This document shows positions 17,591 to 21,604 of a DNA stretch of 33,061 nucleotides, piece after piece. Made by a program: the position numbers and the translations under genes. This DNA comes from Ramlibacter sp. (GTDB lineage Bacteria > Pseudomonadota > Gammaproteobacteria > Burkholderiales > Burkholderiaceae_C): NCBI GenBank assembly GCA_019449555.1, contig JAGRPN010000438.1, positions 1 through 33,061 of the forward strand, written 5' to 3'. The stretch's first letter is position 1; every line of letters starts with the position of its first letter. The notes beneath the pieces are model-generated. The model was not told where the DNA came from, searched no databases, and saw only the letters and a list, made by a program, of their open reading frames with translations.

Positions 17591-19009
17591 TTACAGGCGA
17601 GTTACCAAAGGCGTGTGTTGCGAGCAATTCAGTTTTGCCTGCGCCGACATTCCGGACGAGGCACCCGCAGGCAAACTGATCTCCACGGCCAAGCCGCCGA
17701 GTTGCCCGGAGCGCCCGATCCGCACCTGTGCCTGATGCGCGTCGGCGACTCGGCGCACGATCGACCAGCCGAGCCCGCTGCCCTCCTCGCCGCTGCCGAG
17801 AATGCGGAAGAAGCGTTCGCCGAGCCGCTGCGCATCTGCAGCGCCGAGACCAGGGCCGCCGTCTTCGACCTGCAGCGACACGCGGTCGCCCCGCGCGAGG
17901 ACGCTGATGCGCAGCTTCGCGCCCGGCGGGCTGTAGCGGATCGCGTTGTCCACGAGGTTGCGCACCAGCACCGCCAGCAGTACCGGATCGCCGCGCACCG
18001 GGCAGTCCGGGTCGGCGTCCAGCTCGATTTCCTGCCGCTTCGCGATCGCACTCGCCGCGGTTTCGGAAACGACCTGCCGAACGAGCGCGGCAAGCTCGAT
18101 GGGAACGAGGTCCGGCACGGCACCGGCGTCGAGCCGCGACAGCGTCAACAATTGCTCTACCAGCCGCGTGGCCCGGTCGCAGCCTTGCAGCGTGGCCAGC
18201 AGCGCATGGCGCCGCTGCGCGTCGTCGCTCTCCGCCAGCGCGACCTGGGCCTGCGCGCGGATCGCGGCGATCGGCGTGCGCAGCTCATGCGCGGCATCGG
18301 ACGTGAAGCGCCGCTCCGAATCCATCATGCGGGCGATGCGCCCGAACAGGGCGTTCAGTGCATCGAGCATGGGAACCATCTCGGATGGCGGGCTGTCGAG
18401 GGTGACCGGCTCGAGGGCTTGCGGCTGGCGTTCGGCCAGCGTGCGCCCGAGCTTGCGCAGCGGCGCGACGCCGCTGTAGACGGCCCACCACAACGCGAGC
18501 GCCAACAGGGGCAAGGCGGCCAGCATGGGCGCCAGCGAGCTGCGCAGCACGGCCCACAGGATCGAGCCCCGGGAGTCGACCCGCTCGCTCACGTAAACCT
18601 GCACGTCGTGCTCCGCGCCCTCGGCCGCGAACACGCGCCAGGCGATGCCGGCCACCTTCACGGTCGTGAAGCCGGGCTTGAACGGCCTGCCGCTTTCCGT
18701 CATCGGCAGGTCAGGCGCGTTCGGCGAACGCAGCGCAAGCCGCCCCTCGTGAAACAGCTGGAACGCCACTTTCGGTGCATAGCGATGCAAGATCGGCGCG
18801 TCGGCGGCATCGCTGCCTTCACCGACGTCGCGCGCCTGCTGCACGACGAGCAGCGCCGCGGCTTGCGCCAGATGCCCGTCCAGCAGCTCGTCGATTTCAT
18901 GCCGCGCGTCGACCCACGTGAACGCCGCCGCGGCCAGCCACACACCGGTCACTACACCAAGCACCAGCACCAGCAGGCGCCGTTGCAGCGAAGCCGGCAG
19001 CAGCTTCAT
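17591..19009 (-). CDS. QseC-like sensor histidine kinase
   Basis: A 472-residue membrane kinase. Transmembrane helices lie at about 11-31 and 160-180 with a periplasmic sensor region of about 125 residues between, then a short HAMP-like link. The H box is SDAAHELRTP with phospho-acceptor H241; the ATPase domain has NLVDNAIRYSP (N355), VEDGGPGLG (G1) and GSGLGWSIVRRV (G2). This arrangement matches the QseC/PmrB branch. The ATG overlaps the regulator's stop as ATGA, so the pair is coupled. Context, downstream of three haem-protein genes, suggests it senses a redox or metal-related signal, but the sensor domain does not tell which. Confidence 0.92.
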   Translation of the reverse strand: MKLLPASLQRRLLVLVLGVVTGVWLAAAAFTWVDARHEIDELLDGHLAQAAALLVVQQARDVGEGSDAADAPILHRYAPKVAFQLFHEGRLALRSPNAPDLPMTESGRPFKPGFTTVKVAGIAWRVFAAEGAEHDVQVYVSERVDSRGSILWAVLRSSLAPMLAALPLLALALWWAVYSGVAPLRKLGRTLAERQPQALEPVTLDSPPSEMVPMLDALNALFGRIARMMDSERRFTSDAAHELRTPIAAIRAQAQVALAESDDAQRRHALLATLQGCDRATRLVEQLLTLSRLDAGAVPDLVPIELAALVRQVVSETAASAIAKRQEIELDADPDCPVRGDPVLLAVLVRNLVDNAIRYSPPGAKLRISVLARGDRVSLQVEDGGPGLGAADAQRLGERFFRILGSGEEGSGLGWSIVRRVADAHQAQVRIGRSGQLGGLAVEISLPAGASSGMSAQAKLNCSQHTPLVTRL

Positions 19010-19677
19010 GGACGAGGGCTCTCGCGCGCCACCATGTAGCCCACGCCGCGCACCGTCTGGATCAGTGCGTTGCCCAGCTTGCGCCGCAAATGATGGATGT
19101 GCACCTCCACCGTGTTGCTTTCGACCTCGCGGCCCCAGCTGTACAGGCGCTGCTCCAGCTGCTCGCGCGTCATCACGCGTCCGGCGTTGAGCATCAGCGC
19201 GTGCAGCAGGTCGAATTCGCGCGCGGCCAACACCACCGGCACGCCCGCCTTCACCACCGATCGCGCCGCCGGGTCGAGCACCACGTCCTGCGCCGTGAGG
19301 CATTCCTGGGGCTGACCGTGGGCGCGGCGCACCAGCGCGCGCAGGCGTGCGGCCAGCTCGTTCAGGTCGATCGGCTTGACCACGTAGTCGTCCGCCCCCA
19401 GATCGAGTCCGCGGATGCGGTCGGGAATCGCGTCACGGGCAGTCAGCACGAGCACGGGTGTGGTGATCCCTGCGCGGCGGACCTCGGCGAGCACCTGCAT
19501 GCCGTCTTTCAGCGGCAGTCCAATGTCCAGCACGGCGGCCGCGTACGGTTCGGCGCGCAGCTCGCGCTGGGCCGCTTCGCCGTCGCGCACCCAATCCACG
19601 TGGAATCCGAGCTGGCGCAGGCCGGCGCGCAAGCCGTCGCCCAGCAACGGATCGTCCTCGGCCAGCAGGATGCGCAT
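19006..19677 (-). CDS. QseB-like response regulator (OmpR/PhoB family)
   Basis: A 223-residue two-component regulator with a receiver domain (1-115; acidic pair D8-D9, phosphorylated D51 in VLDIGLP, LVLTARD and the VVKPI lysine) and a winged-helix DNA-binding domain (about 125-220; REFDLLHALM, EVESNTVEVHIHHLRRKLG, VRGVGYM). ATG 19677 is chosen because the domain begins at MRILLAEDD; a start ten codons earlier is unlikely. It lies 26 bases after the cytochrome b561 stop. Its QseB/PmrA-type recognition region fits the tandem TTAA hexamers at 21354-21392 upstream of the operon, suggesting self-regulation (inference). Confidence 0.93.
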   Translation of the reverse strand: MRILLAEDDPLLGDGLRAGLRQLGFHVDWVRDGEAAQRELRAEPYAAAVLDIGLPLKDGMQVLAEVRRAGITTPVLVLTARDAIPDRIRGLDLGADDYVVKPIDLNELAARLRALVRRAHGQPQECLTAQDVVLDPAARSVVKAGVPVVLAAREFDLLHALMLNAGRVMTREQLEQRLYSWGREVESNTVEVHIHHLRRKLGNALIQTVRGVGYMVARESPRP

Positions 19678-19703
19678 GCCCGGATTATCCGCGCCGCACG
19701 CGC

Positions 19704-20444
19704 TCAATCGTCATCGCGATCGTGGTCCCGCTCTGCGTGCCGATGCTGGGTCCCCGGCGCCGCCTGCGTCAGCTCGAAGCCGCCCGGGGCCTGCTGCCAC
19801 TGGAAGGTCCAGAAGCCGAGGACCGCGAGCACCATCACGGCCGCCACGCTGCGCCATGCACGGCGAGTGGCCTCGTGCGGCGGCGCGGCCTTGCGTCCCG
19901 TGATCATCGCGCGCACCAGGTTCTCGCGATGCAGCCAGCTGCCCACCAGCACGCCCGCCACGTGAATTCCGACCACTGCCAGCATGACGCTCGCGATCGC
20001 CTCGTGCGTTTTCCCCAGCCAACGACCGCCCAGGTCGGCGTAGTTGGCCCAGCCGGTGGCGGTGACGGCGAATGCGAGCAGCAACAGAGCCACGATCGCG
20101 ATTGCGCCGGCGGGATTGTGTCCGGTGTGGTGGTCCGGCCGGCCGCGCAGCGCGTTGGCGAGATAACGCGCCGCTGCGGACGGCCCGCGGACGAAACTGG
20201 AAAAGCGGGCGTGCCGCGGGCCCACGAGGCCCCAGACGATTCGAAATGCCAGCAGGCCCGCCATCGTGAAGCCGAGCGTGACGTGGACCAGGTGCCAGCG
20301 GTCGCTCTCGGCCGTGAGCCACGCGCCCGCGAAGCTGATCACCATCAGCCAGTGAAAAATGCGCACCGGTGCGTCCCACACCAGTACCTTGGCTCGCGCG
20401 GGTGCCGCATCGGCCTCAACGCGGGATTCGGACGTCGTGCTCAT
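19704..20444 (-). CDS. Cytochrome b561-type membrane protein
   Basis: A 246-residue dihaem cytochrome b of the Ni-hydrogenase/b561 fold (PF01292-like). After a short cytoplasmic stretch come VWDAPVRIFHWLM, HLVHVTLGFTMAGLLAFRIVWGLVG, a helix around AIAIVALLLLAFAVTATGW, and KTHEAIASVMLAVVGIHVAGV; the paired histidines on these helices are the expected haem ligands. A last hydrophobic segment (VAAVMVLAVLGFW) and a His/Asp-rich tail (HRHAERDHDRDDD) follow. AAGGAG lies 7 bases before ATG 20444, which is inside the dhc gene (29-base overlap). In the SHP system this protein is thought to pass electrons from the membrane to the dihaem cytochrome. Confidence 0.9.
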   Translation of the reverse strand: MSTTSESRVEADAAPARAKVLVWDAPVRIFHWLMVISFAGAWLTAESDRWHLVHVTLGFTMAGLLAFRIVWGLVGPRHARFSSFVRGPSAAARYLANALRGRPDHHTGHNPAGAIAIVALLLLAFAVTATGWANYADLGGRWLGKTHEAIASVMLAVVGIHVAGVLVGSWLHRENLVRAMITGRKAAPPHEATRRAWRSVAAVMVLAVLGFWTFQWQQAPGGFELTQAAPGTQHRHAERDHDRDDD

Positions 20445-20904
20445 TGAATTCTCCTTGATCGGCCCGCGCATGGCAGGCATTGCAGTTGGCCGCGCTCTTC
20501 ACAGCGGGCGATTTCCAGGTGGCCGCCGCGATTTCGTCGTGCTTGCGGACGAACCAGGCGGAACGGGTGATGCGGTCCTCGGGCGGCTGCTCGCGGACCC
20601 GCTTGTAGCTGCCGGCGTTGGCGGCGAGCCAGGCGGAAAGCTCCTTGACGGCAGCAGCATCCGTCGAGGCGTCGGTTCCGAAGTGGCGCTGCAGATTGGC
20701 CACCACGCGCTGCCAGGAAGCGCCCGGCAACAGCGCCGGTGGATAAGCGACATGGCAGGCCCCGCATTCCTGCCGGTACTGCGGCAGCAGCGGAACGCGC
20801 GTTGCGTGCTTGCCGTCGTCGGCGAACGCCGCGCCGGCCACGGCCAAGGTCGCGAGCACCGCGCAGAGCGCGCGCCGCGGGTCGATGCGAATGTGGGAGT
20901 TCAT
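20416..20904 (-). CDS. dhc: Dihaem cytochrome c (DHC)
   Basis: A 162-residue periplasmic cytochrome with a signal peptide ending AGAAFA (about 28) and two haem-binding motifs, CGACH (47-51) and CNACH (141-145). Further histidines, H74 in LQRHFG and H122 in VRKHDE, are candidate sixth ligands, as in the DHC family. DHC is the known redox partner of sphaeroides haem protein. GGAG lies 6 bases upstream of ATG 20904. The gene starts 10 bases after the shp stop, and its last 29 bases overlap the start of the cytochrome b gene in another frame, which argues for tight co-expression. Confidence 0.9.
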   Translation of the reverse strand: MNSHIRIDPRRALCAVLATLAVAGAAFADDGKHATRVPLLPQYRQECGACHVAYPPALLPGASWQRVVANLQRHFGTDASTDAAAVKELSAWLAANAGSYKRVREQPPEDRITRSAWFVRKHDEIAAATWKSPAVKSAANCNACHARADQGEFNEHDVRIPR

Positions 20905-20914
20905 CGCTCGCTCC

Positions 20915-21319
20915 TCAGGGCTTGAGCGTGAGCAGCCACGCCAGGACATCGGCCTTCTCGGCGGCGCTGCATTCCCGGCCGATCACGTCATTGCAGTTGC
21001 GGCGAAACCATTTTTCTGTTTTCACCGGGTCGGTGAACCGCTCCGGATTGAAGGCCGGCGCCATGGGCGCGATCGTCCTGCCCGTGGACGCGTGCCTGCC
21101 GGGCTGCGTGGGCGGCACGCCGTGGCAGGTGGCGCAGCTCCATTCGCGCCCGTGCCGGCTGGTGAACAACTGGCGGCCGCGTTCGGCGACGGGCGGTGCG
21201 CCGGCCTGGGCGCTGTAGCCGGCCAGCAGCTGCGCCGGTTCGGCGGCCGGCGCGGTGGCCGGGATCAGGCTCGCCGCGGTGGCAAGCAGCGCGGCGATGG
21301 GTGGAACAAGCACGTTCAT
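20915..21319 (-). CDS. shp: Sphaeroides haem protein (SHP)/DUF1924 cytochrome c
   Basis: A 134-residue single-haem c-type cytochrome with a signal peptide of about 26 residues (ATAPAA). One CATCH motif lies at 62-66. The C-terminal part, RFTDPVKTEKWFRRNCNDV then IGRECSAAEKADVLAWL, closely matches Rhodobacter SHP from memory: there an Asn in the RNCN segment is the sixth haem ligand that leaves when oxygen or nitric oxide binds, and two cysteines form a disulphide. The equivalents here would be N108 and C109-C117. AAGGAGTT before the ATG is a strong ribosome site. It is the first gene of shp-dhc-cytochrome b-qseB-qseC. Confidence 0.88.
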   Translation of the reverse strand: MNVLVPPIAALLATAASLIPATAPAAEPAQLLAGYSAQAGAPPVAERGRQLFTSRHGREWSCATCHGVPPTQPGRHASTGRTIAPMAPAFNPERFTDPVKTEKWFRRNCNDVIGRECSAAEKADVLAWLLTLKP

Positions 21320-21353
21320 GGCAACTCCTTGGCCGCCATGGTCCGAATCGCCG

Positions 21354-21392
21354 CTTAGCGTTTTCTTAACGCGCTGCTAAGGCGCTCTTAAG
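21354..21392. promoter_or_regulatory. Tandem QseB/PmrA-type operator, four hexamers at 11-bp spacing
   Basis: The plus strand reads CTTAGC-N5-CTTAAC-N5-GCTAAG-N5-CTTAAG, with hexamers starting at 21354, 21365, 21376 and 21387. PmrA/QseB-family regulators bind direct repeats of CTTAAG-like hexamers separated by 5 bp, one helical turn apart. The array lies 35 bases upstream of shp on one side and about 47 bases upstream of the small ORF at 21440 on the other. Binding by the QseB-like protein of the same operon is inferred. Confidence 0.7.
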
Positions 21393-21439
21393 GTCGTGTC
21401 CCCAGCATGAGAGCATCCAAATCAACCCGGACGCACGCA

Positions 21440-21604
21440 ATGGACGCTTCCCTTCTCGCCTTCATCCGCCAATTCATCGGCGTGATCGCCGCGTCGGCCC
21501 TGCCCGTCGTGTTCGCCGCGTTCGTGTCGATCCCGTATACGCTGCAGGCGCAGCCCGGCGCGCTGCACGGCGCCGATCCCGCCGCTGAACGGCACTTCAC
21601 CTGA
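21440..21604 (+). CDS. Small membrane peptide, unknown function
   Basis: A 54-residue peptide with one hydrophobic helix (about residues 5-31, LAFIRQFIGVIAASALPVVF) and a short polar tail. I do not recognise a named family. It is judged real because it has a clear membrane segment, fills the gap between the shp operon and pgk, and faces the shp operon across the tandem operator. An in-frame ATG at 21407 would add 11 basic residues; 21440 is preferred because the hydrophobic segment follows it, but neither has a strong ribosome site. It may belong to the same regulon as the haem proteins (inference). Confidence 0.55.
   Translation: MDASLLAFIRQFIGVIAASALPVVFAAFVSIPYTLQAQPGALHGADPAAERHFT

Follow-up and report, generated by a model that had tools for sequence, protein, structure and literature searches.

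The window analysed here, the whole stretch of 33,061 nucleotides from Ramlibacter sp. (assembly GCA_019449555.1, contig JAGRPN010000438.1), carries a gene cluster for SHP (sphaeroides haem protein). Genes for SHP (shp), a dihaem cytochrome c (DHC; dhc), a membrane cytochrome b, a response regulator, and a sensor kinase follow one another on the minus strand. A gene of 54 codons, labeled P54 in this report, leads away from shp on the opposite strand. Four short hexamers lie between the two start codons, and they are read below as two putative regulator boxes, one facing each gene. The coordinates are collected in Table 1.

Table 1. Genes and promoter elements of the shp/P54 region (aa, amino acids; E, expect value; PWM, position weight matrix)
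Feature	Coordinates	Strand	Description	Match or score
P54	21440..21604	+	54 aa, divergent gene, one predicted membrane helix	
-10-like hexamer CAGCAT	21403..21408	+	10 bp past P54 box	
P54 box GCTAAG-gcgct-CTTAAG	21376..21392	+	distal pair, faces divergent gene	PWM 17.0
shp box GTTAAG-aaaac-GCTAAG	21354..21370	-	promoter-proximal pair	PWM 18.4 toward shp
-10-like hexamer GACCAT	21338..21343	-	10 bp past shp box	
shp, SHP	20915..21319	-	134 aa, one CxxCH, signal-like N terminus	PF09086 E 1.5e-38
dhc, dihaem cytochrome c	20416..20904	-	162 aa	PF09626 E 1.4e-37; matches solved DHCs 3u99, 2fw5, 2fwt
Membrane cytochrome b561-type protein	19704..20444	-	246 aa	PF01292 E 5e-26
QseB/PmrA-like response regulator	19006..19677	-	223 aa	best NCBIfam match QseB
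QseC-like sensor kinase	17591..19009	-	472 aa	PF08521, PF00512, PF02518; best NCBIfam match QseC

SHP proteins can bind oxygen or nitric oxide and are reduced by DHC. A redox module of shp, dhc, cytochrome b, regulator, and kinase had been claimed in an earlier, sequence-only reading of this DNA; it is present, and Pfam and NCBIfam confirm its families. The SHP match to PF09086 reaches 131.5 bits against a cut-off of 22.5, and residues 27-130 align to the SHP of Rb. sphaeroides (1dw0) with an E of 5e-34. The RNCN-VIGR-C stretch is kept in this gap-free alignment, and with it the asparagine that serves as the sixth haem ligand, which we take to be Asn88 in the Rb. sphaeroides protein. The cytochrome b gene overlaps dhc by 29 bp, and the kinase and regulator genes overlap by 4 bp. 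From their sequences, the neighbors of the operon are presumably pgk upstream and pyk downstream.

The regulator scores 256.2 bits with the QseB model (NF007663; equivalog cut-off 345) and 243 with PmrA (cut-off 330), and the kinase scores 310.8 bits with QseC (NF007664; cut-off 475). Because these best NCBIfam scores fall below the equivalog cut-offs, the proteins are called QseB/PmrA-like and QseC-like and are not assigned as QseB and QseC orthologs. The nearest solved chains to the regulator are those of BasR/PmrA (8jo2, 4s04), and the recognition-helix region NT-EVHIH-LR-K-G is common to both sides. Family and structure matches thus agree with the kind of regulator that had been named from the sequence alone.

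On the minus strand, the four hexamers read CTTAAG (21392-21387), CTTAGC (21381-21376), GTTAAG (21370-21365), and GCTAAG (21359-21354). The 11-bp steps claimed for them earlier are exact, and their description as four TTAA-type sites holds for two of the four; a strict search for TTAA-N7-TTAA over the whole window gave no match. At period 11 the ladder has 19 of 24 matches to CTTAAG, the top score of the 33-kb window, in which the best scores at other periods from 7 to 16 are 14 to 16. None of 300 shuffles that approximately kept the dinucleotide content reached 19, and the highest was 17. Both pairs have the form of a PmrA/QseB direct-repeat box, that is, (C/G)(T/C)TAA(G/T)-type hexamers placed head to tail with a five-base gap. 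The distal pair scores 17.0 on the plus strand, away from shp, versus 9.1 on the minus strand, toward shp.

These features probably represent two back-to-back QseB/PmrA-type boxes, through which one QseB-like regulator would fire a divergent promoter for the SHP chain and P54; we hold this reading with good confidence. In the proposed mechanism, one dimer of the phosphorylated regulator (19677-19006) would occupy each box. Ten base pairs separate the end of each box from its own -10-like hexamer; the box would stand in place of a -35 element, and binding should therefore recruit RNA polymerase. Such class II activation is known for PhoB and PmrA. One signal received by the QseC-like kinase would then raise shp, dhc, and cytochrome b together with the regulator and kinase genes, which amounts to positive feedback, and the same signal would also raise P54, a single-helix membrane protein of 54 residues. 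What the sequences themselves show is the gene content, the conservation and orientation of the boxes, their distance to the -10-like hexamers, and a P54 family that co-occurs with SHP, whereas regulator binding, activation, and protein function are what we infer here.

Conservation of the shp box was followed in two genome samples. The order sample comprised 399 genomes, 107 of them with a PF09086 match, and supplied 94 loci with strong shp matches (E <= 8e-34) besides the window, shorter and weaker ones being left out. The family sample of 250 genomes (83 SHP-positive) added 60 loci, for a total of 155 with the window. With a fixed consensus (at least 10 of 12 matches) applied to the first 95 loci, the QseB-type clusters showed a pair at spacing 11 in 45 of 58 cases, and other spacings from 7 to 17 gave 1 to 6 of 58. 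The remaining 37 clusters, which lack such a regulator, gave 12 at spacing 11 and 0 to 4 elsewhere. A PWM with the consensus (C/G)TTAAG-N5-C(T/C)TAA(G/T), trained on the same clusters that it describes, found the pair in 88 of 89 QseB-type clusters in the full set, L107 being the exception. All 82 clusters with a co-directional regulator gene have it, and so do 6 of the 7 with a divergent one. The sequence-only reading had named in advance a loss of the hexamer spacing from related shp promoters as one result that would speak against it; the spacing is kept, since the box precedes nearly all QseB-type shp clusters. Its proposal that the operon is under its own regulator likewise gains support from the box.

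The second box is tied to P54 in the same way. P54 lies divergently beside shp in 17 loci besides the window, and other copies lie away from shp. Over the 18 divergent loci, which omit L329 (a duplicate) and L204 (where P54 is not divergent beside shp), the P54 box starts 64-77 bp before the P54 start codon in 17; the score required, 8, is attained by 0.3% of 4000 random segments. The single failing locus, L278, also has the weakest P54 match. The pattern N-A-N-N-N-T occurs exactly 10 bp past the P54 box in 17 of the 18 loci and exactly 10 bp past the shp box in all of them. In a set of 22 intact P54 copies, beside shp or not, the best score in the 150 bp upstream is never below 8.4, and in 14 the box starts 61 to 68 bp ahead of the gene's start codon; a score of 9 is reached by 3.0% of 1040 random 150-bp segments.

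The feature marked out by the sequence-only reading ends at 21604, the exact end of P54, a gene which that reading overlooked. AlphaFold2 models P54 as one helix (residues 3-35), with block values of the predicted local distance difference test (pLDDT) of 91-98 up to residue 30, and a loose tail. Ten aligned members give the consensus MxxxLxxFxRQFxGVVxAxLxPVVLxAFxSIPxTLGGHPGE...HMT. The window protein matches no Pfam or NCBIfam family even at E up to 10, and 21 family members gave only weak single or double matches to these databases, the best being PF05151 at E 0.0038; P54 was therefore not placed in a known family. Alignment searches found homologs in 21 of 250 family genomes (the copy in G604 is weak and has two stops) and in 5 of 398 genomes order-wide, two of them from other families, and a search for P54 on plasmids gave no match. 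A scan of named genomes by SHP alignment (at least 80 loci) found divergent P54 in Polaromonas, Herbaspirillum, Collimonas, Noviherbaspirillum, Rubrivivax, and Rhizobacter, among others. Some copies are irregular: G522 has P54 duplicated with its boxes about 5.3 kb apart (L350, 6133-6337 and 11403-11607), G323 has a partial extra copy (L351, 3668-4202), and L252 and L257, in G447 and G512, are copies with in-frame stops.

In the family, all 20 P54-positive genomes (E < 1e-6) are SHP-positive, versus 83 of 250 overall (hypergeometric P 5e-11), and by genus the figures are 17 of 17 versus 60 of 141 (P 1e-7); genome kinship inflates the significance, and both P values are optimistic. This test left out G414 and G575 (weak SHP) and G604 (its weak P54 copy, and no SHP), and the counted copy of G447 is one of those with an in-frame stop. 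Five P54 genomes have shp beside a regulator of another type. TTCA-type boxes precede P54 in four of them (G559, G632, G448, and G633) and a TTAAG-type box in G522, so the type of box only partly follows the type of regulator. A strict tie of P54 to QseBC was accordingly dropped as an explanation. P54 tracks SHP more than QseBC; this favors a role as an accessory of the SHP system, the most likely one for P54, over feedback on the kinase.

The alternative of a feedback peptide acting on the QseC-like kinase, as MgrB acts on PhoQ, is unlikely, and it is still the best survivor among the rival explanations. A small single-helix protein whose box would place it under the same regulator fits that role, and MgrB sets a precedent. 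Against it, P54 follows the presence of SHP, also in the five genomes with another regulator type, and 7 of the 17 divergent P54 genes are followed by one for a metal exporter.

A little less probable is that a paralogous regulator, and not that of the operon, occupies the boxes. The genome of the window (G000) has a second QseB/QseC-like pair on contig C191 (L156 ~1501, L157 ~1501), where near-identical TTAAG-N6-CTAAG boxes precede the second QseB-like gene and a gene for a DegP/HtrA-like protease. This pair is a possible source of cross-talk. The box is nevertheless kept where the regulator travels with shp, in the co-directional and divergent clusters counted above, which argues for the operon's own regulator. 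With boxes of the same type elsewhere in the genome and a divergent P54 gene that belongs to the set, the module can no longer be called self-contained, as the sequence-only reading had it.

That reading had further taken the ladder for one four-site operator, on which two dimers would bind side by side (21392-21354) and cooperate at the shp promoter. We regard this as improbable. It could draw on the exact 11-bp register in the window and on the all-forward four-hexamer arrays that 8 of the remaining 88 clusters have, five of these clusters belonging to one family. The distal pair, however, faces the other way by its scores, and the distance between boxes varies widely among relatives: 22 bp in the window and 26, 30 (six loci), 33 (two), 34 (two), 35, 40, 45, 47, 194, and 206 bp elsewhere. 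In 3 of the 18 divergent loci this distance is divisible by 11. The distal pair is also missing before shp in four congeners and one relic. The congener clusters (L360-L363; same genus, other chromosomal places) have the proximal pair alone. In the relic (L364; G639, 1972-2349), which lies between pgk and pyk, only the shp box, the shp start, and the kinase end remain, again with the proximal pair only. No P54 lies beside shp in these five loci, the search not having extended to the rest of their genomes. The 17-bp shp box of the window is identical in congener L360 and in the relic; in three further congeners (L365-L367), pgk adjoins pyk with no cassette between. The window therefore does not show four hexamers in one orientation with a phase fixed in relatives, and the four-site operator was rejected for it on the orientation scores, the variable spacing, and the congeners with a proximal pair only. 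Because the distance between the boxes is free and the 11-bp phase is rare, the ladder is probably no more than two independent boxes that happen to lie in phase, or else a refinement of local extent.

At least two extra hexamers in register were found in 9 of the 89 QseB-type clusters, window included. The other eight arrays (L087, L100, L101, L111, and L125 in one family, and L059, L112, and L120) are all forward and lie outside the family of the window. These 11-bp arrays before shp are genuine candidates for two-dimer tandem operators. In L104, L113, and L117, which have another divergent regulator, TGAAC-/TTCA-type hexamers stand at 11-bp steps, the first two reversed and the last two forward, in what looks like a similar two-way arrangement for a different regulator.

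That the 54-codon frame is no gene and the distal pair a chance relic is very improbable: P54 has no Pfam or NCBIfam family and its members give weak, scattered matches, but a conserved family, the 17 further divergent copies, many distant copies, and the conserved placement of box and -10 hexamer led us to reject a spurious frame.

Several points weigh against the divergent promoter with an SHP-linked P54, in addition to the genome kinship, the training of the PWM, and the five genomes with another regulator mentioned above. Boxes over the threshold, on either strand, also stand before shp in clusters of other kinds: 20 of the 36 in which no nearby regulator was seen, and 18 of the 28 with another divergent regulator. 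PWMs retrained at gaps of 2-6, 8, and 9 give 83-88 of 89 by a register shift onto the same sites; since neighboring gaps drift onto the same 17 bp, this control does not discriminate, and the fixed-consensus count is relied on instead. P54 is found in only 20 of 80 SHP-positive genomes of the family (broader alignment; one match weak, one copy with a stop) and, outside the family, in 2 of 80 such genomes of the order, those searched being 80 of 83 (G000, G562, and G424 left out) and 80 of 85, respectively. The P54 of the window has Q in place of H38 and F in place of M53, both nearly invariant in relatives. Finally, the 11-bp register over all four hexamers could still aid cooperation.

The neighborhood of P54 in relatives hints at a possible connection to metals. 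Of the 17 divergent P54 loci, 7 have a gene for an exporter of the cation diffusion facilitator (CDF) family downstream of P54, on the same strand and within 172 bp. CDF genes lie directly divergent from shp without P54 in 9 further loci of 204, these being the shp loci, out of 230, with at least 1.8 kb upstream; nine duplicate loci were removed beforehand. The stand-alone P54 genes of G457 and G512 also lead a CDF gene. The exporters after P54 in L170 and L353 are CDF proteins by Pfam and NCBIfam (TIGR01297, 236 and 231 bits; cut-off 82); among MamB, MamM, and FieF they come nearest to MamB (205 and 204 bits), far short of its equivalog cut-off of 350, and they stay below the cut-offs of the other two as well. 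Near shp in the 155 loci, a search seeded from a Caballeronia plasmid found CDF genes in 9, multicopper oxidase in 3, a small copper protein in 2, and any of these in 12, and neither CopC nor CopD at the cut-off used.

The cassette of shp, dhc, cytochrome b, regulator, and kinase also occurs on plasmids, with eight matching plasmid records. Copper genes stand before shp on plasmid p3 of Caballeronia zhejiangensis (L368), and a CDF gene stands beside the cassette on plasmid p2 of C. grimmiae (L369); in both, a box precedes shp. In two metagenome-assembled genomes of Aquabacterium (L274 and L275), three hexamers follow one another at 11-bp steps, and the middle one belongs both to a forward shp box and to a reverse box that faces a CDF gene.

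As the divergent unit of several relatives carries a MamB/FieF-like exporter, the signal and the job of the system may concern metal-linked redox stress. Tentatively, P54 could be a new membrane component attached to the SHP system, with SHP, DHC, and cytochrome b on one arm of the divergon and P54 and an iron-type CDF exporter on the other; SHP would then serve periplasmic redox defense or metal redox chemistry in metal stress, and not quorum sensing. We think this somewhat doubtful. The metal connection stays a speculative lead because there is no exporter beside P54 in the window, the CDF count has no baseline from unrelated genes, and H38 and M53 are replaced in the window protein.

What SHP does has been a question ever since it was discovered in Rb. 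sphaeroides. A putative operator is now defined and conserved across the order, and gene order, box, and co-occurrence all link an apparently unannotated small membrane protein to SHP; the divergent P54/SHP promoter is thus a testable lead on the role of SHP. If the metal-stress divergon is true, it would give an outline answer to the role of a long-known oxygen-binding cytochrome c. The window also illustrates how easily four sites in phase are taken for a single operator.

Among known systems, small membrane regulators of the MgrB type have about 50 residues, one membrane helix, and a gene driven by a response regulator, and MgrB acts on PhoQ. P54 differs in that it co-occurs with SHP and leads a CDF exporter operon in some relatives. 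In the open PMC literature, no description was found of an operator, a co-regulated partner gene, or a testable signal for SHP. The operon type is already known. According to the available part of their paper, Meyer, Kyndt and Cusanovich (2010; PMC2909971) described an SK2-class SHP operon with a QseC-type sensor, in which shp, dhc, cytochrome b, response regulator, and QseC-like kinase share one operon, as they do here. The same part considers such regulators likely to control SHP, proposes a divergent promoter for SK1 clusters, and reports, for four species or strains that it names, CzcD metal transporters close to SHP; it contains no box, P54 gene, or QseB-type divergent promoter. As far as the accessible texts extend, the box and P54 were not found elsewhere in the open PMC literature.

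The box itself has a verified counterpart in the PmrA box of K. pneumoniae pbgP, given in the accessible text as CTTAAT-N5-CCTAAG and bound by one activated dimer (PMC3973317). It shares with the window the head-to-tail hexamers, the five-base gap, and a regulator with the same recognition-helix region; the window differs in that two such boxes, pointing away from each other, lie over a putative divergent promoter. For the regulator, the portion consulted of a study of Salmonella PreA/PreB (QseB/QseC) names neither SHP nor DHC and leaves the PreA binding sites for future work (PMC2653508). It reports that PreA (QseB) activates its own operon, divergent neighbors, and the cytochrome b561 gene STM1253 (30-fold, one array). 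By analogy, the Salmonella QseB (PreA) regulon may serve as a useful precedent for the proposed mechanism, in which one QseB-like regulator would drive its own operon, a cytochrome b, and a divergent neighbor.

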